From the NCBI RefSeq assembly GCF_001693275.1, contig NZ_CP016477.1, positions 1,798,001 through 1,862,000 of the forward strand: a stretch of 64,000 nucleotides of DNA, written 5' to 3'. The DNA is from Picosynechococcus sp. PCC 7117. Lineage in GTDB: Bacteria > Cyanobacteriota > Cyanobacteriia > Cyanobacteriales > MRBY01. The position numbers and the translations under genes are program-made. Under the pieces are notes generated by a model that was not told the origin of the DNA, made no database searches, and was given only the letters and a program-made list of their open reading frames with translations. Position 1 is the first letter of the stretch. Every line of letters begins with the position of its first letter. Below are positions 1,473 to 62,041 of this stretch, in pieces.

Positions 1473-2843
1473 CTATTGTCTGATGACGATTCTACCGTTA
1501 CTGAGGCCCACTAATTCTAAGCGGAGGGGGCCTGCCGTAAAACCATTTTCGATGGCGATCGCCCGAATTTCTGTCACGGGTTCTGGTGCATTATTGAGGG
1601 CTTCGACAAAATTGATAATGTGACCGACATTGCCATCTTTAACCTGGATATCCCCCAGAACCCCGGCTCGCCGCGCTCTAAATTGCGCTGCCCCCAACAG
1701 AAAATCCACTGGACGCCGGGCGGCACTAGGATTTTGCACACTCAGCTCCTCCAGAGACAAAGTGGCAATCACTTCCCCGGCGCGAAAAACCTGCTCATTT
1801 AAAGTCACATCCGCAAACACTTGGACGGAACCTTCCCCCTGGAGGTAGTTCCCCGCTGCCAGGAGGCGCACCACGTAGTCCCGACCATCGGCGATTTGCC
1901 CTAGGAGTTGTTGCACTTGGGCATTGGTAATTTGCACCACCCGCGCCTCAAAGTCAGGATTAACGCCTCCGGTGGCAATGATCGCGTTGCGATTCGCTTC
2001 CCGGAGCAGCTGATCAACGGCTTGGTTAGCTGCTTTGGGATCAATAATCCGCACCACCCCAAAGGCTAAAACTTGCCCTGTCGTAAGGGCGACATTCCCA
2101 CTCCGGAAATTGATGTAGTTGGCTTCGAGGATATCAATTTGCTGTTCTAGGGAGCCAATCTGATTTTCTAGGCCCGTGAGCACTTGATCCTTTTGGGCGA
2201 TCGCCTGGTCGAGTTGGGCAATGCGACCATCGCGCTGGTTGATCTCGGCTTGGAGCTCACTTTGTTGGGCTTCTAGGGCTTCGATCTGCTGGGAGCGTTC
2301 CTCAATAATGGTGTTTTGTTGATTGAGCTGGGCGCGGAGGGTTTCACTTTGGGCCTGGAGGCGATCGCGCTGTTGCCGCAAGGTCGTTTGCTCTGTGGTG
2401 AGCGCATTAATATCAGCCTGAAGTTCGCTGGCCTGTTCCCGAAAACCCGCTAGTTGAGTTTGGGCCGTTTCAAATTTTGCTTCAATTTCTTGTAAATCTT
2501 GTTCTGCTTCTAGGCGATCGTCCCTCGCGGCCTGTAACTCTTTTTCAATCTTTTCCTTTTCTGCCGTCACATCCATCAACTCTTGCCGCCGCTGGGCGAG
2601 GATTTCATCCAACTGAAAAACCCCCTGGCGCAAGGACTTGCTCAAGCCAAACAATAACCCCAAGGTGCTGGCGGCGATCACTGTTCCCGTCATTACCGTG
2701 ACGACCACCGCCGTCTGTTTTGGCCGCAGATTAAATAATGTAAGCCGCGCTTTGCCGACCTTACTACCAAGGCGATCGCCCAGTGCCGCCAGGATGCCCC
2801 CCAAGATTAAAACTGAAAAGATTAGTACAAAAGCACTGGTCAT
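1473..2843 (-). CDS. DUF3084 domain membrane-anchored coiled-coil protein
   Basis: 456 residues. The N-terminus has two hydrophobic segments (about 1-22 and 45-68) flanking a basic loop (GSKVGKARLTLFNLRPKQ). A long Gln/Glu-rich coiled coil follows (about 75-240), then a globular C-terminal region (about 250-456) characteristic of DUF3084 proteins in cyanobacteria. This suggests an inner-membrane protein with a long rod, perhaps tied to envelope structure, but the family has no established function. It is followed closely by the RNase H-fold gene on the same strand. No sign of damage or transfer; HIP1 sites occur within it. Confidence 0.85.
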   Translation of the reverse strand: MTSAFVLIFSVLILGGILAALGDRLGSKVGKARLTLFNLRPKQTAVVVTVMTGTVIAASTLGLLFGLSKSLRQGVFQLDEILAQRRQELMDVTAEKEKIEKELQAARDDRLEAEQDLQEIEAKFETAQTQLAGFREQASELQADINALTTEQTTLRQQRDRLQAQSETLRAQLNQQNTIIEERSQQIEALEAQQSELQAEINQRDGRIAQLDQAIAQKDQVLTGLENQIGSLEQQIDILEANYINFRSGNVALTTGQVLAFGVVRIIDPKAANQAVDQLLREANRNAIIATGGVNPDFEARVVQITNAQVQQLLGQIADGRDYVVRLLAAGNYLQGEGSVQVFADVTLNEQVFRAGEVIATLSLEELSVQNPSAARRPVDFLLGAAQFRARRAGVLGDIQVKDGNVGHIINFVEALNNAPEPVTEIRAIAIENGFTAGPLRLELVGLSNGRIVIRQ

Positions 2844-2895
2844 TTAACAAAAAGGTGACATCCAAACACACAAGTATGACTTCTCTACTTTAGCG

Positions 2896-3627
2896 TTAAG
2901 CGAACTGTTGACTCAGGTTTACGGGGTCATGGACGGTAATTTTTTTCTTATAAATCGAAATCATGTCCTGTTCCCGGAGTTCTCCCAGGAGGCGCGTTAC
3001 TGTCACCCGTGTCGAACCAATTGCTTCGGCGATCGCCTGGTGGGACAGTTTGAGATCAATGCGAATCCCCTCATCGGTCGGCACCCCAAAATCTCGACAG
3101 AGAATTAACAAGAAACTCACCAGACGTGAGCCCATATCCCGGTGGGCCAAGGTTTCAATCATCATCTCCGTTTGTAAAATCCGTGACGACAGCCCTTTTA
3201 GCATTAACATCGCTAATTCTGGGTGCTCATTAAGCGCCTTTTGCACCTGCTCAATGGGAGCCGATAACAGTTCCACAGGGGTAAAAGCCACCGCATGGTA
3301 AAAGCGATCCGACTTTTGTCCCGTGAGTAGCGATAAAACCCCAAAGACACTATTCTCCCGGAGCAGGGCCACCGTAATTTCTTCCCCCGCTTCATAGACC
3401 CGAGACAGCCGGACAGCTCCTTTCAGAAGAAAATAAACCCGTTCCGCTGGGTCCCCCGGAAAAAAGATCGTCTTGCCCCGGTCATAGTTCTCCACAACAG
3501 GTGGGAAGGGGCCACTGTGAAACTGACGAAACGCTGTCGCAAGGTCTGTAATTTGAGTCGCAGGTAGTTCAGGCACTGGATTGGCAGAAGAGAAAGGAGG
3601 TTGGTTGAAATCAGGGTTGTACATCAT
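2896..3627 (-). CDS. ntcA: Global nitrogen regulator NtcA (CRP family)
   Basis: Transcription factor of the CRP/FNR family that senses 2-oxoglutarate and, with PipX, activates nitrogen-assimilation genes when ammonium is scarce. Seen: a cNMP-type effector domain (segment [20 protein letters not shown]), the long dimer helix ([29 protein letters not shown], given here only in part as [15 protein letters not shown]), and the C-terminal helix-turn-helix [20 protein letters not shown], very close to known NtcA. I chose the ATG at 3627 (the adjacent ATG at 3624 is equally possible). A further in-frame GTG lies at 3654, but family members are usually about 222-230 residues. The gene is divergent from fabI across about 280 bp. 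Confidence 0.95.
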
Positions 3628-50519: not shown

Positions 50520-51425
50520 ATGTCTAGCTTGGTGCCCCAGTTAACAGCCGACGGTTCCTATACGTTTTTCTCGGAGGAATTTCAGGAGCATTTTCACTCC
50601 CAGGTGGGGGCCAAACGGGAGGCTGAGGAAAAATTTCTTCTGCCCTGTCGGATCGCCGAACTCGCCCAACAACCCCAACTCCGGCTTTTGGATGTTTGCT
50701 ATGGCTTGGGTCATAATACCGCAGCAGCCCTCACGGAAATTTGGCGCGTTAATCCCCACTGCCAAGTGACCTTATTTGCCCTAGAAAAAGACCAGGCGAT
50801 CGCCCTCGATAGCCTTCAGCAAAATATCCTGGCGGCCTATCCCAAAACGGTAGTTTCCCTACTCCGGGAATTGAGCGAAAATCTTCAGATCGAAACAAGT
50901 CTATTCAAAGCTCAATTGCTCACAGGAGATGCACGGCAAACTATCCAACGGGTGATTCAAGCAGATTTCCAGGCTGATGCTATTTTCCTCGACCCCTTTT
51001 CACCGCCAAAATGTCCCCAGCTCTGGACGATGGAATTTCTCAATTTAGTGGCCCAATGCCTTGCCTCCGACGGCTATTTGGCGACCTATTCCTGTGCGGC
51101 GGCGGTGCGGGTGGCTCTCCAGGCAGCAGGTTTACAGCTCGGCAAAACTCCCGGTGTCGGTCGAAAGTCTCCCGGAACCCTAGCGCGGTTTATTCCTGAG
51201 AATCTGACGCCTTTGTCCCAACAGGAGCAGGAACATCTTCTCACCAATGCGGCGATCGCCTACCGCGATCCGACCCTCCGGGATGACGCAGACACAATCT
51301 TGCAGCGGCGACGGGACGAACAACAGTCCAGCCAGCGGGAATCCACGAGTCACTGGAAAAAACGTTGGTCAGCCCTCAATTCAACTGCGCCCGAAAACGA
51401 TGCACACTCACCGACAACAAAATAA
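50520..51425 (+). CDS. MnmD-type tRNA wobble-uridine methyltransferase
   Basis: 301 residues from ATG 50520; a GTG six bases earlier is also in frame. It corresponds to the methyltransferase half of MnmC (MnmD), which converts nm5s2U34 to mnm5s2U34. Seen: TADGSYTFFSEEFQEHFHS, the SAM motif LLDVCYGLGHNTAAALTEI, the acidic LDPFSPPKCPQLWTMEFLN (D-x-F-S-P-x-x-P-x-L-W, a hallmark) and ATYSCAAAVRVALQAAGLQL. No MnmC FAD oxidase half is attached, as usual outside proteobacteria. Its last 50 bp overlap the end of an ABC permease gene on the other strand. Confidence 0.9.
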   Translation: MSSLVPQLTADGSYTFFSEEFQEHFHSQVGAKREAEEKFLLPCRIAELAQQPQLRLLDVCYGLGHNTAAALTEIWRVNPHCQVTLFALEKDQAIALDSLQQNILAAYPKTVVSLLRELSENLQIETSLFKAQLLTGDARQTIQRVIQADFQADAIFLDPFSPPKCPQLWTMEFLNLVAQCLASDGYLATYSCAAAVRVALQAAGLQLGKTPGVGRKSPGTLARFIPENLTPLSQQEQEHLLTNAAIAYRDPTLRDDADTILQRRRDEQQSSQRESTSHWKKRWSALNSTAPENDAHSPTTK

Positions 51426-52506
51426 TCGCAAACCCTAGCAATGCCAAAATATTCGGCCACAGGGAGTCAATCGCCACCCCTTTAAGAATCAAACTCCGGG
51501 CGATCGCCACATAATGGCGCAACGGATCAAACCACGAGAGAATCTGGAAAAATTTCGGCATACTCTCAATCGGGGCGATCGCCCCCGAAAGCTGGATAAT
51601 TGGCGCATTAAAAAAGAATGACGTTAAGACCACCTGTTGCTGGGTGCGGGATAGAGTTGCCAGTAAAATTCCTAAACCGATACTCACAAAAACATACAGG
51701 CCAGAGAGGGCATAAAAAATCAAAAAATTGCCGCGAAAAGGCAAGTGAAAGATAAATTTTCCTATCGCCGATGCAATTAAAACATCCCCCATTAAAAGAA
51801 TAAATAAGGGGATTATTTTTGCCAACAAAATCTCCCAGCCCGATGCCGGAGTCATGAGTAATTGCTCTAGTGTACCCACATCTTTTTCGCGAATGACAGT
51901 CACTGAAGAAATCAGAGAACCCGTTAATGTTAATACTAAACCAATCACTCCCGGTACAAAGAACCAACTACTGGTTAACCCCGGATTATATAAAAAACGG
52001 CTTTGGGTTTCGACGGGGGGCATTTTAAATTCAGGATTTTTTTGGCGAGTGTATTGATTTACAATTTGATTAATATAGCCATTTGTAATGCCTGCAGTAT
52101 TGGCATCAACCCCATCAATAAAAACTTGTACTTCCGTTGAATTGCCTTGGTTTAAATCTCGATCAAAGTTGGGCGGAATAATTAATCCGGCGGTTAATTT
52201 ACCATTCCGTACTTGCTCCTGTAACTGAGCTTCATTTTTAGGGATTGACTCAATTTGAAAGATGTCATTTTCCGTCAAGGCAGAAACAAATTCACGACTT
52301 TGGGCAGAGTTGGCGTAATCGATTAAACCTAAACTGAGGTGATCGACATTGGGGCTGAGGGCTAAACCAAAAACTAATAATTGAATCGTCGGCGGAAAAA
52401 TTAACAGAAAAATAGATTGGCGATTTTTGAGGATTTGGCGAATTTCCTTGAGGGTTAATGCCCAGAAACGACCATCAAAAAAGCCTTGTAGTAAATTAAT
52501 TTTCAT
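51376..52506 (-). CDS. ABC-2 type permease (YbhR/YhhJ-like)
   Basis: 376 residues, last gene of a four-gene export operon. N-terminal helix (about 25-45), a long extracytoplasmic loop (about 50-175), then five helices from about 175. The family end is seen in LSWFDPLRHYVAIARSLILKG, and the core includes FFVPGVIGLVLTLTGSLISS. VIREKDVGTLEQLLMTPASG is the ABC2-type coupling region (E-x-G-T). Paralogous to the permease directly upstream; 10 bp separate them. Together with the double ATPase and adaptor it forms a YbhGFSR-type exporter. Its 3' end overlaps the MnmD gene. Confidence 0.92.
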   Translation of the reverse strand: MKINLLQGFFDGRFWALTLKEIRQILKNRQSIFLLIFPPTIQLLVFGLALSPNVDHLSLGLIDYANSAQSREFVSALTENDIFQIESIPKNEAQLQEQVRNGKLTAGLIIPPNFDRDLNQGNSTEVQVFIDGVDANTAGITNGYINQIVNQYTRQKNPEFKMPPVETQSRFLYNPGLTSSWFFVPGVIGLVLTLTGSLISSVTVIREKDVGTLEQLLMTPASGWEILLAKIIPLFILLMGDVLIASAIGKFIFHLPFRGNFLIFYALSGLYVFVSIGLGILLATLSRTQQQVVLTSFFFNAPIIQLSGAIAPIESMPKFFQILSWFDPLRHYVAIARSLILKGVAIDSLWPNILALLGFAIILLSVSVHRFRAQLN

Positions 52507-52516
52507 ACATCAATAT

Positions 52517-53623
52517 TTAGTCCGATATCTGCATATTTTTCATGATTTTTGTGGCAGCCTTAAAAAGGATTAAACCAATAATCCCAACCACAATGGGTAC
52601 ATACCAAATACTGCGCCAACCACTACCCCGTACAAAGGCATCACGGGTGAGCAAAATGTAATAGCGAGCGGGAATAATATTGGAGATTAATGATAAGGGA
52701 AAGGGAATATTTTCTAAGCGATAAATAAATCCAGAGAGTAGAAATGAGGTTAAAAATCCGGCGATCGCCGTGCCTTGGACGGCGGCATTTTGGTTGCCAC
52801 CCCGTGCGCCGATAAATAACCCGAAGGACACCGCCGCCGCGAGGTAAATACCTGTGCCGATAATTAATGGCAGGGGACTGGTTTGGAGGCGGATATGGAA
52901 CAACACAAAGGAGATGGTCATCACAACAATGGTTTCGGCGATCGCCACTAGCCAGTACGCCAATCCTTTCCCTAACAGCCATTCCGTAGAACTGAGATCG
53001 GAGGCATAGACCTGCACAGCGGTTCCCTGTTCCTTTTCTCGCACGACTGCAATAGCGGCAAGCATCGACGGAAACACCCAGAAGACGACCCCAAAAATCC
53101 CCGGCACAATATACAGGGCTTCCTCCCGACCGGGATTAAACCAAATTCGCACCCGTGCTTGAATGCCTTCGGGACGCTGGGCATTGGGCAGAGTTTGGAT
53201 AAAAAAGTTGGTTACCGCCCGCACGCTGTTTTGAATCACCCGCGCATTATTCACATCTGTCCCGTCAATCAACGCTTGCACCTTGGCATTGCCCGCCGCC
53301 ACATCTGCCGCAAAGGTCGGGGGAATGACGATGGTCGCCTTGGCTGTGCCCCGATCCAGTGAGGATAACGGCGAAGTTCCAGCGAGGGGCGTGGGGATAA
53401 ATTGATTGGTGGCAAAGAGCCGCTCCACGTAGCTGCGGCTCAGGGGCGAATTGTCGAAATCCTGAATGCTCAGGGGAATATTTTTGGTTTCTAACCGGAT
53501 CGCGTAGCCATAAATTAACAACATTCCCAAGGGCAGCACCAACGCTAAAGCCACCGTGAGGCGATCGCGGCTAAATTGTGCCAGTTCCTTTTTCGCTTGG
53601 GACAAAATTCGTTTTAGGCTCAT
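52517..53623 (-). CDS. ABC-2 type permease (YbhS-like)
   Basis: 368 residues, third gene of the export operon. Layout: an N-terminal helix (ALALVLPLGMLLIYGYAIRL, about 26-45), a periplasmic loop, then five helices from about 175 with VVREKEQGTAVQVYASDL as the coupling motif and GFLTSFLLSGFIYRLENIPF as a late helix. The partner permease downstream has the same architecture, so the transporter is probably a heterodimer. Only 3 bp separate it from the ATPase gene upstream, which indicates tight coupling. Confidence 0.92.
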   Translation of the reverse strand: MSLKRILSQAKKELAQFSRDRLTVALALVLPLGMLLIYGYAIRLETKNIPLSIQDFDNSPLSRSYVERLFATNQFIPTPLAGTSPLSSLDRGTAKATIVIPPTFAADVAAGNAKVQALIDGTDVNNARVIQNSVRAVTNFFIQTLPNAQRPEGIQARVRIWFNPGREEALYIVPGIFGVVFWVFPSMLAAIAVVREKEQGTAVQVYASDLSSTEWLLGKGLAYWLVAIAETIVVMTISFVLFHIRLQTSPLPLIIGTGIYLAAAVSFGLFIGARGGNQNAAVQGTAIAGFLTSFLLSGFIYRLENIPFPLSLISNIIPARYYILLTRDAFVRGSGWRSIWYVPIVVGIIGLILFKAATKIMKNMQISD

Positions 53624-53626
53624 TAT

Positions 53627-55591
53627 TTAACGTAGATCCTCCGCCCGTTGGACTGTGCCGATAAAGGAATCTTCGAGGGTAAAGGGAATGGTGCGCTGGC
53701 TATAAATTTCAATCCCTTCTTGCTGTAAGGTTTGCTGGACAAAATTTAAGTCTTGGGCGGGATTATCTAAAACGAGGTGCAGGCGATCGCCAAAAATCGA
53801 CACCCGCCAATGGGCTAATTTTTCCTTGAGTAAATCCGAACTGTGCTGAATTTGGTTGGTACAAAACTCGATCAATTGTCCCGGTTGCGCCGCCTTAATT
53901 TCTGTGGGGGAACCCTGCGCCACGATCTCCCCCGCCACCATAAACGCCATCCGATTACAATTTTCCGCCTCCTCTAAATAGTGGGTCGTGACGAGGATCG
54001 CCGTCCCCTGCCGCGCAAAATCCCGAATTAAGCGCCAAAATTGCCGTCGCGCCACCGGATCCACCCCCGAAGTCGGTTCATCGAGAAATAAAATATCCGG
54101 CTCGTGCATCACCGACGCGCCAAATGCCACCCGCTGTTTCCAACCCCCCGGTAAACTGCCCGTTGTGATTTTTTCCCGACCGAGTAACCCACAGGTTTCC
54201 AACACCCACGCGATTTTTTCCCGTCGCAATTTTCGGGGAATGCCGTAAACGCCGCAATAAAATTCCAAATTTTGCTGAATACTCAGATCATCGTACAGGG
54301 TAAATTTTTGGCTCATGTACCCAAGGCGCGATCGCACCTCAGACCGATGCAAATTTTCGCTTTCGCCCGCTAACTGTATCAGTCCTGCTGTCGGTGGCAA
54401 GAGACCGCAGATCATTTTAATCGTGGTAGTTTTGCCTGCGCCGTTTGCGCCGAGGAGTCCATAAATTTCGCCGTAGTGGACATCGAAGGTGACATTTTTC
54501 ACTGCCTGAAATTCCCCAAAGGTTTTTTGCAGTTGTTGGGCAGAAATGGCGAGTTTTGGAGCTTTTGGGTTGGCATTTCCCCGTTTTCGGTAATAGGGGA
54601 ATGATTTATACACCGGATCTGCCCCTTGCTGCCGCAGATGGTTTACAAAGACATTTTCGAGGGTCGGTTCATTCGCCTCTAAACTTTGCACCTGAATGTT
54701 CGCAGCGGCTAGGGTTTGCGTAATATCTCGCCGGGCTTGGTCAACGTCGGGGGTCAAAATATCGAGGCGATCGCCAAAGGATTGCACATCGATCACCGTT
54801 TCCGGCGCCTGGTTGCGTAACAATTTTTCCGCTGCGGTTAAGGGAGTCGCCCGCAATTCCAAGCGATGTAACCCTAAATTTCGTTGCAATTCCCCCAGTG
54901 TGCCAAGCTGCTGAATTTCCCCCTCATAAATCAGGGCGAGGCGATGACAGCGTTCCGCCTCATCCAGATAGGGCGTTGCCGTCACAATCGTCACCCCCTG
55001 CGCCGCAATCCCCGCCAGCAAATCCCAAAACTCCCGCCGCGACACCGGATCAACCCCCGTCGTCGGCTCATCGAGCAACAAAATTTTCGGCTGGGCAATC
55101 AACGCACAACATAACGCCAGCTTCTGTTTCATCCCCCCCGACAACTGCCGCGCCAACCGATTTGGAAACTGATCCAAATTCATCAATTTCAGTAAATACC
55201 GATGGCGATCGCCAAATATCCGCTCTGGCACATTCCGTAAGCCCGCCACATAGCGTAAATTTTCCAGAATGCTCAGATCCAAATACAGCGAAAACGTTTG
55301 CGTTAAATAGCCCACATCCAAGTGGGACTCCTGCGGTGTTTTGCCGAGCATTGCCACCGTTCCCGCCGTGGCCCCCATTACCCCCGCCAAAATCTGAAAC
55401 GTACTCGTTTTCCCCGCCCCATCCGGCCCAATCAGCCCAAAAATTTCCCCTGCCTTCACCGAAAAATCAATGCCCCGCACCGCCCGCACCGCGCCATAGT
55501 CTTTCCGCAGTCCCGCCACCTGAATCGTCGTTTCCCCGTAGCGTAACCCGTTGCTAAAAGTTGAATGATTGCTCGTCGCTGTCATCATCAC
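53627..55591 (-). CDS. Double ATP-binding ABC protein (YbhF-like)
   Basis: 654 residues with two nucleotide-binding domains in one chain. First domain: Walker A GPDGAGKTSTFQ, signature RQLSGGMKQKLALCCAL, Walker B LLLDEPTTGVDPVSRREFWD. Second: Walker A GANGAGKTTTIK, signature GSLPGGWKQRVAFGASV (LPGGW rather than LSGGQ), Walker B LFLDEPTSGVDPVARRQFWR. Both catalytic pairs look intact, but the second signature is altered, so the two sites may not be equivalent. It starts with three Met codons (MMMTATS). The gene shares one base with the adaptor gene upstream. Confidence 0.94.
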   Translation of the reverse strand: MMMTATSNHSTFSNGLRYGETTIQVAGLRKDYGAVRAVRGIDFSVKAGEIFGLIGPDGAGKTSTFQILAGVMGATAGTVAMLGKTPQESHLDVGYLTQTFSLYLDLSILENLRYVAGLRNVPERIFGDRHRYLLKLMNLDQFPNRLARQLSGGMKQKLALCCALIAQPKILLLDEPTTGVDPVSRREFWDLLAGIAAQGVTIVTATPYLDEAERCHRLALIYEGEIQQLGTLGELQRNLGLHRLELRATPLTAAEKLLRNQAPETVIDVQSFGDRLDILTPDVDQARRDITQTLAAANIQVQSLEANEPTLENVFVNHLRQQGADPVYKSFPYYRKRGNANPKAPKLAISAQQLQKTFGEFQAVKNVTFDVHYGEIYGLLGANGAGKTTTIKMICGLLPPTAGLIQLAGESENLHRSEVRSRLGYMSQKFTLYDDLSIQQNLEFYCGVYGIPRKLRREKIAWVLETCGLLGREKITTGSLPGGWKQRVAFGASVMHEPDILFLDEPTSGVDPVARRQFWRLIRDFARQGTAILVTTHYLEEAENCNRMAFMVAGEIVAQGSPTEIKAAQPGQLIEFCTNQIQHSSDLLKEKLAHWRVSIFGDRLHLVLDNPAQDLNFVQQTLQQEGIEIYSQRTIPFTLEDSFIGTVQRAEDLR

Positions 55592-56835
55592 TATCGCTGC
55601 ACATTTTGGGTCGCATCCGTCAAAATCGTCGCATCCGCAGGCATTCCCGGTTTCGCAAAACCCGCTTCATTTTCAATCTGCAATTTCAAACCGAACACCT
55701 GGGTCACCCGATCATCCCGAAAATAAATATTCTCCGGCGTAAAGGAAGCCTCCGTATCAATTGCCGCCACCGTTGCCCGTAAAGGTTCCTCCGGCGCAGA
55801 GTCCAAAAACACCGCTGCCGTCTGCCCAATTTGAATCGCCCCTACTTCCTTTTCCGGAATAAAGCCCCGTAGATACACATCCCCCAAATTCACCAGGGTT
55901 AACAGGGTTTTTCCCGTCGCCACCACTTCCCCCGGTTCAGCAGTGCGGGTTAATACCACCCCATCGATGGGACTGACCAATTCTAAATCCTTGAGTTTCG
56001 CGGCAATTTCGTTGTAATTGGCTTGGGCATTTTGCACTTGGGCTTGGGCGGCATTGAGTTGGGTTTGGGCTTGGGCGAGTTGGGTTTGCAACCGTTGCAC
56101 CTGTACAGCACGAATATCTGGATTGAACTGGCTGGCTTGGGTTTGGGTGAGATTTCCTTCGGCGGTTTTCACCTGTTCAGCGGCGGCAGCCACCACGGCA
56201 CGGCGGGCATCGAGGTTTTCCTTCGTCGATAAATATTGGGTTTGGGCCTGTTCTAAGCGCTGCTTGGACACCACACCGGATGCGTACAATTCCTGAAAGC
56301 GATCGCCATCGGCTTTGGCAAGGGCGAGTTCTGCTTCGAGTTGTTTGACCTGAGCTTGGGCTTGGGCGAGTTGGGCTTTCGCGGCGGCAACATTGGCTTG
56401 GGCGGCATTCACCCGTCCGGTGGTGTCATCCTGGGCCTGCTGTTGGGTGAGTTGGGCTTCGGTGATCTGATTTTCAATGACGGTAATTTGCAGTTGGGCT
56501 TGGTTCACCTGTTGTTGGGCAGCGTTAATCCGTGCCTGGGCGCCATCAAGGGATGCTTGCAATTCCGCACTGTCGAGGGTGACGATAACTTGCCCCTTTT
56601 GTACCGTATCTCCTTCCCGCACGGCGATCGCCTCTATTTTCCCGCCCACCTTGGCGCTAATATTCGTTTCATAGCCTTCGATTCTGCCGCTGAGTTCGAT
56701 GCCTTGGGTGGGTTCTGGACGGAGGAAATAGTTCACCAGACCAACGCCCAATCCCCCCACCAGCACGATGGGCAGCGCAATTTTAAGAAATTTTGGAATG
56801 CCTTTGTTTTGGGTCGTTGCGGCGGCAGTCATCAC
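55591..56835 (-). CDS. HlyD family efflux adaptor (YbhG-like)
   Basis: 414 residues, first gene of the export operon. N-terminal membrane anchor (FLKIALPIVLVGGLGVGLVN, about 15-35), a barrel-sandwich (lipoyl-like) domain (GIELSGRIEGYETNISAKVG, KGQVIVTLDSAEL), a long alpha hairpin coiled coil rich in Ala/Gln (about 80-265), then the second lipoyl half (LELVSPIDGVVLTRTAEPGE) and a beta barrel (LRGFIPEKEVGAIQIGQTAA). It links the inner-membrane transporter to an outer-membrane channel (TolC-like), which is not in this window. The substrate is unknown; YbhGFSR in E. coli is associated with drug and ion export. Confidence 0.93.
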   Translation of the reverse strand: MMTAAATTQNKGIPKFLKIALPIVLVGGLGVGLVNYFLRPEPTQGIELSGRIEGYETNISAKVGGKIEAIAVREGDTVQKGQVIVTLDSAELQASLDGAQARINAAQQQVNQAQLQITVIENQITEAQLTQQQAQDDTTGRVNAAQANVAAAKAQLAQAQAQVKQLEAELALAKADGDRFQELYASGVVSKQRLEQAQTQYLSTKENLDARRAVVAAAAEQVKTAEGNLTQTQASQFNPDIRAVQVQRLQTQLAQAQTQLNAAQAQVQNAQANYNEIAAKLKDLELVSPIDGVVLTRTAEPGEVVATGKTLLTLVNLGDVYLRGFIPEKEVGAIQIGQTAAVFLDSAPEEPLRATVAAIDTEASFTPENIYFRDDRVTQVFGLKLQIENEAGFAKPGMPADATILTDATQNVQR

Positions 56836-57012
56836 ATTTCTAGGAGATTTTCGTCGTTAATCTAACTACCTTTCATTATGGAAGGGATAAGCCGGGGGAT
56901 GGCTCAGCACGTAGTATTTCGACAAATTGCCATCGCTGATAAGGTTTATCTATTTTTGGCGACACCCGGCAAAATTCCAGGGAAAATGGTGGGCAACTTC
57001 AGGCGATCGCCC

Positions 57013-57738
57013 ATGGCCAATCTCAAAATCCCGAAGCAAGAGTATTGCCCCTACGCCCAATATTGGGAACCGAAATCGACCCCAGAAGGTTATGTGCTCT
57101 CAGCAGAATCTCCCCAATCGAGAAGCTGGGCCGCGATGGGCTGTGCGGGTCTTTTTATTACGGTGTGGCTCGGCATTTGGTGCGGGGTTTCTTTTACGAT
57201 GTTTGCGATCGCCTTAGTACAGATCTTCCAAGGCCCGACGTTGGGAGCCATATTTATGTTGCTGTTCCTAATTCCCTTTGTGGCCATTGGTGTGGGCGGA
57301 CTGATTTGGGTGGGGCGACTCCTCTACCAAAAATACCGCATCAAAACTGGGGTACTGATTTTACCGACCTATCCGCTCTATGCTGGGGAAACCTATCGGG
57401 TGCGCTATCGTCGTCCCTTGCGTAACGGGCAAACAACCCAAACCGCCCTTTTATCTGCCACTTGGTTGCATTACGAATGGGTGCAATATTATCGCGGCAC
57501 AGACCTCGAAACTGTGACCCACGGGCTTTCAACCCAGGCTTGTTTGGAGCGCGCCATTGGTCGGGGAGTCAAGCAACTGGAATACACAATCGATCTGACC
57601 ATTCCCGCCGATGCCAAGCCGAGCATCTACGCGCCGCCCCACAATCAACTGCGCTGGGAACTTCAGGTGCGTTGTCATTTGCCCCAGGTTGTGCGGGATA
57701 CATCTTTTTTTAAGTTAAGGGTGGTGAGTAGACCATGA
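57013..57738 (+). CDS. Membrane protein with beta-sandwich tail, unknown
   Basis: 241 residues from ATG 57013 (MANLKIPKQEYCP); an in-frame ATG at 56878 would add 45 residues of poor quality. Two membrane helices (about 43-68, GLFITVWLGIWCGVSFTMFA, and about 75-102, LGAIFMLLFLIPFVAIGVGG) lead to a cytoplasmic or periplasmic tail (about 115-241) of beta strands: LYAGETYRVRYRRPL, ...LEYTIDLTIPADAKPSIYAP, and LRWELQVRCHL, resembling the C-terminal half of arrestin/Spo0M-like sandwiches. First of three tightly packed genes; its stop overlaps the next start by ATGA. No known family. Confidence 0.72.
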   Translation: MANLKIPKQEYCPYAQYWEPKSTPEGYVLSAESPQSRSWAAMGCAGLFITVWLGIWCGVSFTMFAIALVQIFQGPTLGAIFMLLFLIPFVAIGVGGLIWVGRLLYQKYRIKTGVLILPTYPLYAGETYRVRYRRPLRNGQTTQTALLSATWLHYEWVQYYRGTDLETVTHGLSTQACLERAIGRGVKQLEYTIDLTIPADAKPSIYAPPHNQLRWELQVRCHLPQVVRDTSFFKLRVVSRP

Positions 57739-58118
57739 CAACGCTGAAAACGCCCATTACGCTACATCTCGACCGTGATGCAGTCAGTTTAGGCGGCAGA
57801 TTATCGGGTGACTTTGTCTGGCGGTCAGAAAATCCAGACCGTTGCCCGAAAAAAGCGACGGTTTCTATCCTGTGGTCAACGGAAGGCCGAGGCAAAGGCG
57901 ATCGCCACCGGGTCAGTTCCCAAATCCTTGACCAAAATATGGTGCTGAATCTCATGGGGCGAAACCATCCTTTTACGTTTGAGATTCCGTTGGATGCGCC
58001 TATTGCCTACGATGGCTTTTTATTTCGGTTGATGTGGTCTGTGGAAGTGCGGATCACGTTTCCAGGCTTGTTTAGCGACAAAGATACAGCGGTAGCTCCT
58101 TTTCAGGTATTGGCTTAG
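57735..58118 (+). CDS. Small arrestin-like beta-sandwich protein, unknown
   Basis: 127 residues, start overlapping the previous stop (ATGA). All-beta in appearance: ITLHLDRDAVSLGGRLSGDF (arrestin_N-like first strands), ATVSILWSTEGRGKGD, and HPFTFEIPLDAPIAYDGFLF followed by RLMWSVEVRI, the strands that in arrestin/Spo0M domains hold the F-x-I-P-L...S-Y-x-G pattern. No enzyme residues. It could be the cytoplasmic partner of the first protein. The fold is inferred from motifs only. Confidence 0.68.
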   Translation: MTTLKTPITLHLDRDAVSLGGRLSGDFVWRSENPDRCPKKATVSILWSTEGRGKGDRHRVSSQILDQNMVLNLMGRNHPFTFEIPLDAPIAYDGFLFRLMWSVEVRITFPGLFSDKDTAVAPFQVLA

Positions 58119-58120
58119 GC

Positions 58121-58753
58121 ATGGCGACAAATCCTTACCAGGCCATCGGTTTACGGCACAATCCCTTTATCGGCACGGAACAACTGGCGCAGACGGTCAC
58201 TTTTTGGCTGGATCACGGTTATTCTGAAGCGCCCTTGCCAGGGGGAAATCAATTTGTGCAAATCCTGGGGGAAAAGGGTTTCGGGAAAACGGCCCATCTG
58301 CACCATTGGCGATCGCAAACGGGGGGAAGTTATTGTTATGTGCCGCCCAATTATCTCCAGCGCTGGCAATGGCTAAAAACGGGGGCGATCGCCTATTGGG
58401 ACGAAGTGGATCGCCTGCCCCTGGGGTTATTTCTGGGGGGACTGCTCCGGGTGCGTTTCCGGCGGGGGACGGTGGTGGTTGGTAGCCATGTGGATATTAG
58501 TTTTTGGGCGAAATTGGTGGGGCTAAAAACAATAACAATTCAGCTGCCGCCCCTCGACGTACCCACTTTGCAAGCTTGGGCCGCGTTCAAAATTGCGGCG
58601 GCCACCATCCCGGATCAGACTTGTCCTCTAACCCTTTCCCCAGAAAAGGCGGCGGAAATTGTGACCCAATCCCAGGGATCTTGGCGACGGGCCGCAGATT
58701 ATCTCCACATCTGGGTGGCGGCGATCGCCTTTTCAAATTCACAACAAGATTGA
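58121..58753 (+). CDS. Small P-loop ATPase, unknown
   Basis: 210 residues; start 2 bp after the previous stop. Seen: Walker A GEKGFGKTAHLHHW (about 50-58), Walker B-like AIAYWDEVDRLPLG (D, then E), sensor-like GTVVVGSHVD, a C-terminal helical part (VPTLQAWAAFKIAAATI, SPEKAAEIVTQSQGSWRRAA). The layout suggests the AAA/ORC-DnaA side of the P-loop class rather than a kinase or GTPase. It may be the motor or switch for the two sandwich proteins of the same unit. No specific family can be named. Confidence 0.7.
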   Translation: MATNPYQAIGLRHNPFIGTEQLAQTVTFWLDHGYSEAPLPGGNQFVQILGEKGFGKTAHLHHWRSQTGGSYCYVPPNYLQRWQWLKTGAIAYWDEVDRLPLGLFLGGLLRVRFRRGTVVVGSHVDISFWAKLVGLKTITIQLPPLDVPTLQAWAAFKIAAATIPDQTCPLTLSPEKAAEIVTQSQGSWRRAADYLHIWVAAIAFSNSQQD

Positions 58754-59515: not shown

Positions 59516-59613
59516 TCATGTGGTAGGCAGAAATGGGTTAAACACAGGCACTTCCGCTTTCTCAAAATCTTCTACTCTGAGATCACGTTTGTATCCAGTA
59601 ACCAGCCCTTCAT
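59516..59613 (-). pseudogene. Collapsed vapC toxin remnant (PIN domain)
   Basis: On the minus strand, an ATG at 59611-59613 opens MKGWLLDTNVISE, the usual VapC start with the first PIN-domain aspartate, then meets a stop. In another frame the same stretch reads VEDFEKAEVPVFNPFLPTT up to a stop at 59516, the typical VapC C-terminus. The start and end of the toxin gene have thus been joined with loss of about 100 internal codons and a frame change. No functional toxin can result. Confidence 0.8.
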
Positions 59614-59716
59614 AGCTCCACTTCTCTAACGGGACTCTGAACACGGGCTTTTGGCGATTTTCTGCCATTCATCCCAGACCTTCATAGCTCCACTTCTCTA
59701 ACGGGACTCTGAACAC
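59607..59716 (-). repeat. 38-bp direct repeat (antitoxin end plus toxin start), two copies
   Basis: Identical 38-bp copies at 59607-59644 and 59679-59716 with a 34-bp spacer. On the minus strand the repeat reads the last codons of the Phd antitoxin (VQSPVREVEL, stop) overlapped by the vapC ATG (ATGA). It is therefore a duplication made during decay of the toxin gene, not a CRISPR unit. Confidence 0.85.
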
Positions 59717-59990
59717 CCGACGACTCAAAATCCAGGCTATTCAAAGGGGATTGAGAGAGTAGTTCGTGAATATTGGGTTGTTTCAATAAAGGTAAAAGTT
59801 TAGCGAATTGATCCGCAGCGAGGATAACAACTGCATCTTTTCCTCGTACTGTGACCAGTTGTGGATCAGCATCCCGCGCTAGACGCACCACCTCACTAAA
59901 CCGGGCTTTGGCGTCTTCTAATTTCCAAGTCTGAAGATTCTCTAAACTGTGGACTACCGCATCGCCAGAAGAAACCGAAAATGAAGTCAT
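59682..59990 (-). CDS. Orphan Phd/YefM family antitoxin
   Basis: 102 residues. N-terminal DNA-binding/dimer domain of Phd/YefM type: TWKLEDAKARFSEVVRLARD, PQLVTVRGKDAVVILAADQF (residues about 22-64). The C-terminal tail (about 65-102, LLKQPNIHELLSQSPLNSLD and on) normally blocks the toxin. The stop overlaps an ATG by ATGA, as in intact phd-vapC pairs, but the toxin gene downstream has been reduced to fragments. The antitoxin frame itself appears complete and may still bind its own operator. Confidence 0.9.
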   Translation of the reverse strand: MTSFSVSSGDAVVHSLENLQTWKLEDAKARFSEVVRLARDADPQLVTVRGKDAVVILAADQFAKLLPLLKQPNIHELLSQSPLNSLDFESSGVQSPVREVEL

Positions 59991-60202
59991 TTTTCTTACC
60001 TGACTATATCTAGTTAGATACTAACCTAGAGGCGATCGCCTTGTAGATTGCACCTAAGGGATCTACAAAAATCTCCGGAAAAATAGGGAATCAATTTTCA
60101 CTTTGGAAATTACAGGGACTATCCCCGTTAGTTTACGGGGAAAGTTTTAACGGAACGATGGCTTCCTGCCACAATGGAAAGGTTTCTGTGCGATCGCCAC
60201 TG

Positions 60203-62041
60203 ATGATTCTTTGCCTGAATCCCACTTGTTCCCAACCCCGTAACCCTGATCAGGGGAAATTTTGCATGGCCTGTGGTCAACCCCTGGTGTTAGGCGATCG
60301 CTATATAGTCCGGCAAGTTCTGCACCAAGGAACTAAGGGACGCACCCTCTTGGGCATTGACCGGGGCACTTTTCCCGAAAGTTATTGCATTCTTAAGCAA
60401 GTTTTTCTGACCCAGAGCGTGCAGGCTCAGCAGTTTGTGGAAATGTTCCAGGAGAATGCGGCGCGGTTAAAAACGTTAGGCGATCGCCCGGAATTTCCGA
60501 CGGTTTTAGGGCTATTTTTACCGGAACATTGGCATCAAATCACGATTCCACCGACCCTTGTGTTTGAAAAAATTGCTGGGGAAAGTTTACGGCAGCGGCT
60601 CGATCTTATGGGGCCATTCTCCGAGGCAAAATTACGGGAGTTTCTCCAGGACATTCTCCCTTTAGTGCAGTTGATCCATGACCACGGGCTCATTCACCGG
60701 GATCTGAATCCGGATAATCTTCTGTTTACTCCAGCACAGCATTGGGCGATCGTCGATTTTACGGCGGCGAAGGTGACCTCAAAAATGGCCAGCGCGGAAC
60801 CCGGCACCCTAATCGGTTCGGGAATTTACACCGCCCCAGAGCAACTGCGGGGTCAAAGTTATCCTGGCAGCGATCTTTACAGCCTGGGGGTGATCTGTCT
60901 GGAACTGCTCACCTCAATTCATCCCTTTGATCTCTACAGTGTGCGCGAAAATCGCTGGGTCTGGCGGGATTATCTCACAATACCGATTAGCAATAATCTG
61001 GGCCACTTGCTGGATCAAATGCTGGCTGAAGCCGTTGGCGATCGCCCCCAATCTGCCCAGGCGATCCTCGATCAACTTTTCCCAACCGCCAGACCAGTCA
61101 CCCCAAAACCGATACCACGAGTTGCCCCCGAACCGCCTCAAATTATTTCCCTAATTGAACCCAGCCCCGTGCCCCAATGGTATTGTTTTCGCACCTTTAC
61201 GGGTCACCACGCCTATATCACCGCTTTGCAGTTTGCTCCAGATGGTCAGTTCCTTGCCAGTGCTGCCGCGGATCAAACCATTCGCCTCTGGGATCTAGAC
61301 CGCCGCCGGGAGTCTCGTTGTTTGCGGGGGCACCGGGGAATTATTTCTGGATTAGCCTTTTGGGGCGATCGCCTCATTTCTGGCAGTTGGGACTACACCA
61401 TTCGTCTCTGGAATTGGCAACAGGGAGAACAGACCGCTTGTCTCCAGAAAAGATCGACTTGGATTCAGGGGCTTGCTTGCTGGGAAAAAACAGGGCAATT
61501 AGCCACTTTGGGGGCCGATCAAGAAATCGTTGTCTGGGATTTAACGACACAAAAAATTCTCTACACTTTTACCGTATCGGGTGCTCAACTGATCCGAGCA
61601 TCCCAGACGAAAAACCAGCTCTGGCTCGCCCAGGGAAATCATTTAACTTGCTATGAACAAAGCCAGTCTGTTCAAACTCTCCCGGAACATCAGGGAGACA
61701 TTCTTGATTTTCAAGTCAGTGCCGATGGTCAATTTTTAATCAGTATCGCCACGGATCGGACCCTCAAAATTTGGCCCCTCGCTTCTGATTACACACCCAA
61801 AATTCTTCGGCCAGTCATTCCCTTTACCCAATTGGCGATCGCTCCAAACCAGCGCTTTTTTGCCGGCGGCGATCGCCAAGGAAACCTTTCCCTCTGGCAA
61901 CTCGGTCAGGAACAACCTTTCGTCGAACTAGTTGCCCACAGTGGTGAAATAAAGGCGATCGCCATTGCCCCAGACAGTCAGATTATTGCCACCGCTGCCG
62001 CCGATAAAACCATTAAACTCTGGCGATTCGGGATACAATGA
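60203..62041 (+). CDS. Zinc-ribbon / degenerate Ser-Thr kinase / WD40 fusion protein
   Basis: 612 residues from ATG 60203 (MILCLNPTCSQP); an in-frame start at 60158 adds 15. Zinc ribbon: CLNPTC and CMAC in the first 30 residues. Kinase domain (about 35-290) with an altered glycine loop (HQGTKGRT), the ATP lysine kept (ILKQVF), catalytic loop HRDLNPDN (usual Lys replaced by Asn, at about 165) and DFT in place of DFG (about 184). This suggests weak or absent kinase activity. The C-terminal half is a seven-blade WD40 propeller (about 330-612), for instance DQTIRLWDLDRRRE and ADKTIKLWRF. A sensing or scaffold role is likely. Paralogue of the kinase at 8.2 kb in the first half. Confidence 0.87.
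   Translation: MILCLNPTCSQPRNPDQGKFCMACGQPLVLGDRYIVRQVLHQGTKGRTLLGIDRGTFPESYCILKQVFLTQSVQAQQFVEMFQENAARLKTLGDRPEFPTVLGLFLPEHWHQITIPPTLVFEKIAGESLRQRLDLMGPFSEAKLREFLQDILPLVQLIHDHGLIHRDLNPDNLLFTPAQHWAIVDFTAAKVTSKMASAEPGTLIGSGIYTAPEQLRGQSYPGSDLYSLGVICLELLTSIHPFDLYSVRENRWVWRDYLTIPISNNLGHLLDQMLAEAVGDRPQSAQAILDQLFPTARPVTPKPIPRVAPEPPQIISLIEPSPVPQWYCFRTFTGHHAYITALQFAPDGQFLASAAADQTIRLWDLDRRRESRCLRGHRGIISGLAFWGDRLISGSWDYTIRLWNWQQGEQTACLQKRSTWIQGLACWEKTGQLATLGADQEIVVWDLTTQKILYTFTVSGAQLIRASQTKNQLWLAQGNHLTCYEQSQSVQTLPEHQGDILDFQVSADGQFLISIATDRTLKIWPLASDYTPKILRPVIPFTQLAIAPNQRFFAGGDRQGNLSLWQLGQEQPFVELVAHSGEIKAIAIAPDSQIIATAAADKTIKLWRFGIQ

Follow-up and report, generated by a model that had tools for sequence, protein, structure and literature searches.

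Arrestins are central adaptors in eukaryotic membrane signalling and trafficking. The roles of their bacterial relatives are to our knowledge almost unknown, Spo0M of Bacillus subtilis aside, and we know of no AAA+ partner gene for Spo0M. The locus analyzed here consists of three adjacent genes, termed P1, P2 and P3, in the cyanobacterium Picosynechococcus sp. PCC 7117. Spo0M (PF07070; 5cl2) is a prokaryotic member of the arrestin clan, and the predicted P1 domain matches 5cl2 with an E-value of 1.7e-6. In addition, a fusion of P2 with P1 from another genome (L099, see below) matches PF07070 with an E-value of 1.1e-4, which is slightly below the cut-off. Spo0M however carries both lobes in one soluble chain and has no membrane hairpin. 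Associations of Spo0M with FtsZ and with division proteins have been reported (PMC5325327).

The eukaryotic arrestins, the ARRDC/TXNIP proteins and Vps26 of the retromer display the same beta-sandwich lobe and are the best structural matches of P1. Their order of domains, Arrestin_N followed by Arrestin_C, is found in a fusion protein of the Deinococci class. However, these proteins are encoded by one gene, have no membrane helices between the lobes and have no clamp-loader-like ATPase partner.

The predicted AAA+ core of P3 is that of RarA/MgsA, RuvB, RFC/DnaX, Orc/Cdc6 and DnaA/Hda. P3 differs from RarA, RuvB and the clamp loaders in having only 210 amino acids, with no collar, oligomerisation or DNA-binding domain, and its partner genes encode arrestin-like proteins and not DNA-repair or clamp proteins. 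The MoxR-vWA ternary systems (PMC7159879) also comprise three proteins, among them an AAA+ ATPase and one with a non-enzymatic adaptor domain, and show a patchy distribution that includes cyanobacteria. They are however defined by the MoxR clade and the vWA domain, and no Pfam or NCBIfam model of either matches P1, P2 or P3; the paper makes no mention of arrestins (PMC7159879).

The open-access literature searched contained no paper that names an arrestin-AAA+ operon, and subscription journals may hold one. The original prediction, made from the DNA sequence, was that no named system has this make-up, and searches of Pfam, NCBIfam, PADLOC, PHROGs and open-access papers bore this out. The unit is rated as a system of a new kind: each of its folds is known, and their combination was not found in these libraries and papers. 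A gene set encoding a putative split membrane arrestin with a dedicated AAA+ protein would give a testable handle on bacterial arrestins and on the cooperation of arrestin lobes, and the clamp-loader-like AAA+ ATPases would gain a new type of partner and a very small form.

Organization of the three-gene unit

The window, i.e. the whole stretch of DNA analyzed, comprises 64,000 nucleotides of the 3.43 Mb host genome, in which a single copy each of P1, P2 and P3 was found. As originally described, P1 and P2 share a four-base ATGA overlap and P3 starts two bases past the P2 stop codon. The motifs listed for the proteins are likewise all present, IPADAKPS in P1 and both GEKGFGKT and YWDEVD in P3. 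Table 1 gives the positions of the genes and their features.

Table 1. Positions in the window of the genes P1, P2 and P3 and of their predicted domains and motifs
Feature	Position	Strand	Remarks
P1, predicted membrane-anchored arrestin-domain protein, 241 aa	57013..57738	+	Recurs 5′ of P2 in ~19 cyanobacterial loci
P1 residues 34-109, two-long-helix hairpin, predicted membrane anchor	57112..57339	+	AlphaFold2 helices 34-73 and 77-109; hydropathy and charge pattern
P1 residues 111-240, predicted arrestin-fold lobe	57343..57732	+	Foldseek/VIA-align Z 12.1 over 129 residues to ARRDC3 N-lobe
P2, putative single-lobe soluble arrestin-like protein, 127 aa	57735..58118	+	Fused to P1 or P3 in Deinococci-class genomes
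P2 motif W-x-T-E-G-R-G	57873..57893	+	T, G, G invariant; R in 21/22 members
P3, predicted minimal AAA+ ATPase, 210 aa	58121..58753	+	Model, profile and conserved residues
P3 Walker A, GEKGFGKT	58268..58291	+	K56 and glycines invariant, 21/21 members
P3 Walker B, IAYWDE	58388..58405	+	D94 and E95 invariant, 21/21 members
P3 sensor-2-like SWR	58679..58687	+	R189 invariant, 19/19 members; aligns with GDAR of RarA-like protein

The mechanical open reading frame of P1 begins at position 56878. The start at 57013, which was the one originally assigned, is favoured because the N-terminal residues are conserved in relatives (MANLKIP, MAKVKLK, MSKLKLN).

Comparison with the nearest relative gives dN/dS ratios of 0.11 (P1), 0.17 (P2) and 0.16 (P3), which indicate purifying selection. 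When 21 loci were compared using open reading frames of at least 90 aa, only the clusters holding the triad spanned all 21 loci, and the next cluster spanned four. The low ratios, together with joint recurrence in genomes that share no common flanks, argue that the triad is more than a chance association. Scans of the window P1, P2 and P3 with Pfam, NCBIfam, PADLOC and PHROGs gave nothing useful, and a PDB sequence search with the profiles of the three proteins gave chance matches only.

P1

The AlphaFold2 model of P1, built on 11 sequences and of moderate confidence (pLDDT 78.5, pTM 0.65), displays the two helices of the hairpin followed by a sandwich at about residues 111–240. A sandwich fold had been named beforehand as a point on which the proposal could fail; it is predicted by AlphaFold2 and Foldseek agrees. 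The best Foldseek matches in the PDB are the ARRDC3 N-lobe, Spo0M, TXNIP, arrestins, Vps26 and one Ric1-Rgp1 chain, and the best 50 listed are all arrestin-clan or Rgp1-containing chains. The second structural comparison aligns the 129 residues at 2.5 Å. Arrestin_N is matched by six of 11 P1 relatives, with a best E-value of 1.9e-5. As modelled, the P1 lobe belongs to the arrestin clan. The description of P1 as a membrane sandwich protein is therefore retained as to the sandwich and refined as to its nature, i.e. the sandwich is itself a predicted arrestin domain that is homologous to P2.

The window P1 has no significant Pfam match, and the arrestin sequence signal comes from the relatives. 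A search of the host genome with Arrestin_N (PF00339) gave no match, thus the arrestin copies of the window appear to lie below single-sequence detection.

Positive charges are clustered right after helix 2, which is a modest signal. Because of this clustering, both ends of P1 are probably cytoplasmic, which is where the soluble P2 and P3 would also be located.

P1 relatives with no adjoining P2 or P3 are present at L025 1–765, L077 5028–5888 and L026 5933–6676, thus P1 may act without the other two proteins. The relative in L077 adjoins a TPR/CHAT-like gene. One P1 relative shows a weak match (E = 0.011) to the cyanobacterial TRADD-N-associated two-helix membrane domain PF20712.

P2 and the Deinococci-class fusions

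P2 had been proposed to have arrestin/Spo0M-like strands, and the sequence evidence agrees with this. Five of nine P2 relatives match Arrestin_N (best E = 7e-5), further weak matches are to Spo0M and Rgp1, and the P1 and P2 profiles are homologous by hhalign (probability 95.8, E = 6.5e-9) with cross-matches in searches as well. Here again, the window protein has no significant Pfam match and the arrestin signal comes from the relatives. On this evidence P2 shares the predicted arrestin fold with P1.

In the window the two putative arrestin lobes are encoded by separate genes, and two lobes in one chain are found only in fusions of the Deinococci class. In three genomes of the class of a Deinococcales MAG, P2 and P1 form a single protein; P3 adjoins it directly in L099 and lies nearby in L097 and L098. 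The layout of this protein is Arrestin_N, a membrane stretch and Arrestin_C. The Arrestin_N matches of the two P2-P1 fusions tested score 35.1 and 38.6 bits against a Pfam cut-off of 24.9, and the Arrestin_C (PF02752) match of the L099 fusion scores 27.7 bits, which equals the cut-off. This order of domains suggests a split arrestin in cyanobacteria, with P2 as its N-type and P1 as its C-type lobe. Such an assignment is uncertain, as the P1 domain structurally fits an N-lobe best.

Two further genomes of the same class (L058, L096) show P2 and P3 as one protein beside P1. P2 is thus fused to each of its partners in turn and, by the usual logic of gene fusions, all three proteins would be in one complex with P2 at its center. 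The fusions indicate likely contacts among P1, P2 and P3, and the presence of both kinds argues strongly for physical assembly of the three proteins. In L058 (Deinococcales, positions 2104–3596) two tandem P1 genes are found ahead of the P2-P3 fusion, thus the membrane part of that organism may be a heterodimer.

P3

P3 was originally described as a P-loop ATPase with Walker A and Walker B motifs. This is upheld and can be refined to a minimal AAA+ protein of the clamp-loader/RarA/DnaA type. The AlphaFold2 model (nine sequences, pLDDT 85) shows a compact AAA+ core and lid. The Foldseek list is headed by RuvB, MgsA/RarA and clamp loaders, whereas an ORC/Cdc6 chain and RFC come first in a second structural comparison (best Z 12.9, 190 residues, 2.9 Å). 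The P3 profile aligns with a RarA-like protein (probability 97.6, E = 2.7e-12) over a region that includes the DE-x-x-R and sensor-2 regions. By the model and the intact Walker A, Walker B and sensor-2 elements, P3 is an AAA+ ATPase of this type with predicted activity.

The stretch between Walker A and Walker B is short in P3. The chain ends after the lid helices and the model displays no collar, C-terminal oligomerisation or DNA-binding domain, thus the analogy to clamp loaders applies to the core domain only. The putative arginine finger, i.e. the K/R after sensor 1, is not conserved in the alignments (AKLVGL, SRLVGY, ARMTGF, AQASGL), which suggests that P3 may be a switch rather than a ring motor.

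P3 retains a GL-x-x-NPF start, which resembles that of ExeA-type ATPases. In an envelope assembly or quality-control device P3 would act like an ExeA/GspA- or MoxR-type ATPase, and P1 and P2, through their arrestin domains, would provide a secretion, pilus or thylakoid/plasma-membrane complex with chaperone-like scaffolds. An actinobacterial P3 relative matches TIGR03015, an XrtA/PEP-CTERM-associated ATPase, with an E-value of 2.3e-6, a Deinococci relative matches AAA_22 (E = 1.1e-4), and Spo0M reportedly associates with division and membrane-organising proteins (PMC5325327). However, the TIGR03015 match scores 27.2 bits, far below the cut-off of 324.5, and secretion, pilus and XrtA genes are absent near the loci surveyed. 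TIGR03015 does not match the window P3 and gives only weak matches in the host genome, short of significance at E 0.01. The 50 structural matches listed for P3 in the second comparison include neither TnsC nor ExeA chains, which carries no weight against a relationship to these proteins. An envelope role of this kind is considered quite improbable.

Distribution and gene order

P3 is present in five of 386 cyanobacterial genomes, a count that leaves out one genome (G172) with a 25-residue fragment and no adjoining P1 or P2. P2 is found in nine of 291 genomes of the host's order. A scan of genome contigs with the single P3 sequence gave no match, and an alignment used as query gave 18 loci. The unit is rare in cyanobacteria and occurs in three bacterial phyla.

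Conservation of gene order was the other point on which refutation had been set beforehand. The order P1-P2-P3 is conserved in approximately 19 cyanobacterial loci and in three actinobacterial genomes. It is kept in five genomes of the host genus, in two Halomicronema and in Snowella, Okeania, an Oscillatoriales MAG, Calothrix, Nodosilinea, Plectonema, Nostoc, Richelia, Coleofasciculus and one uncultured cyanobacterium. The Alkalinema locus shows the same order with broken reading frames. In the Anabaena cylindrica PCC 7122 plasmid pANACY.03 (L079 3918–6423), an insertion that carries a transposase-like gene breaks P3. The genes cas1 and csx18 lie a few kb from this broken unit. In the genome of L046, P2 was looked for and not found.

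The three actinobacterial genomes (L093–L095) belong to the order of an Acidimicrobiales MAG, and this MAG carries all three genes, with P3 on a different contig from P1-P2. One further actinobacterium (L118) shows the order P3-P1-P2. A broad P3 profile matched 48 genomes of the actinobacterial phylum, and only two of these (G587, G1002) were counted as relatives. The two weak matches that were opened are RarA-like proteins and were not counted. Matches L007–L011 from the first phylum search (E ~0.004) were taken as chance.

In RI_101, P1-P2 and P3 are at different places and all three are present. Each of the three RI_101 proteins groups with Snowella in its tree, thus the split is probably secondary. 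The P1, P2 and P3 trees agree on the main groups. The separate location of P3 in RI_101 and the stand-alone P1 relatives are what might be expected if P1 and P2 acted as adaptors on their own, formed no complex and had nothing but the operon in common with P3, an unrelated ATPase. Against this are the P2-P3 and P2-P1 fusions, the retention of the triad when unlinked and the congruence of the trees, and such independence is very improbable. Retention of all three genes when unlinked, together with the congruent trees, supports a single complex.

The very patchy distribution over three phyla, and the plasmid copy near cas1/csx18 that is interrupted by a transposase gene, are consistent with an anti-phage or programmed-death system. 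In such a system P3 would be an ATP-dependent sensor or switch, P2 would act as adaptor, and P1, with its two helices, would be the membrane effector and cause damage there upon release. Two-helix membrane proteins are common as defence effectors, and one P1 relative shows the weak TRADD-N-associated match. However, no PADLOC model matches P1, P2 or P3, and no relative was found in viral contigs (P3 and P2 profiles) or in phages (P3). A search of plasmids with the Deinococci-type proteins also found none. The immediate neighbours are mostly housekeeping genes, i.e. MoeB, magnesium chelatase H, agmatinase-like, chorismate synthase and glycine dehydrogenase, and the PADLOC matches among ten neighbours are MoeB-like and methyltransferase proteins. 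Conflict systems usually swap in variable effector domains, and no such domain is swapped in here. A role in defence is possible and the neighbourhood gives it no support; as a reading of the unit it is improbable.

Proposed function

The reading preferred here, which appears somewhat better than evenly probable, is that P1, P2 and P3 form one complex at the cytoplasmic face of the membrane, i.e. a split, tethered arrestin in which P3 binds P2 and ATP-dependent docking or removal of P2 leads to capture and release of a membrane protein. P1 would be one arrestin lobe, anchored by the two-helix hairpin, P2 would be the other, detachable lobe, and P3 would be a small AAA+ protein that binds P2. 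Binding and hydrolysis of ATP by P3 may dock P2 on P1 or remove it, by analogy to the opening and closing of a clamp by a clamp loader. The bilobed arrestin at the membrane would then capture and later release a membrane protein, either a cargo or a receptor. That an ATPase drives or switches a membrane device was also the original suggestion, and P3 may have this role. The folds, gene linkage, fusions, selection and conserved catalytic residues are results of computation, whereas the loading and unloading cycle, its direction and the membrane-protein cargo are conjectural.

In a more general form, the unit would represent an ATP-driven bacterial arrestin cycle in which the clamp-loader-like P3 joins the exchangeable lobe P2 to the membrane-tethered lobe P1 and separates them again. 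The resulting adaptor could be used repeatedly to gate or sort membrane proteins, and would correspond in prokaryotes to the arrestin/Vps26 cargo adaptors, here equipped with a motor of its own. This wider proposal is tentative and rather unlikely.

Other features of the window

The plus-strand open reading frame at 60158–62041 encodes a Ser/Thr protein kinase fused to WD40 repeats, and its kinase part matches the PADLOC PD-T4-6 models (E = 8.4e-86). A Phd/YefM-type antitoxin gene (E = 3e-10) is at positions 59682–59990 of the minus strand, with no obvious adjoining toxin open reading frame. A 43-base direct repeat is present at the 3′ end of the antitoxin gene in two copies that are 98% identical (59602–59644 and 59674–59716, spacing 72). 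Divergent from P1, the minus strand displays an export cluster at 51376–56835, where the open reading frame translations show an HlyD-like protein, an ABC protein with two ATPase domains and two ABC-2 type permeases.
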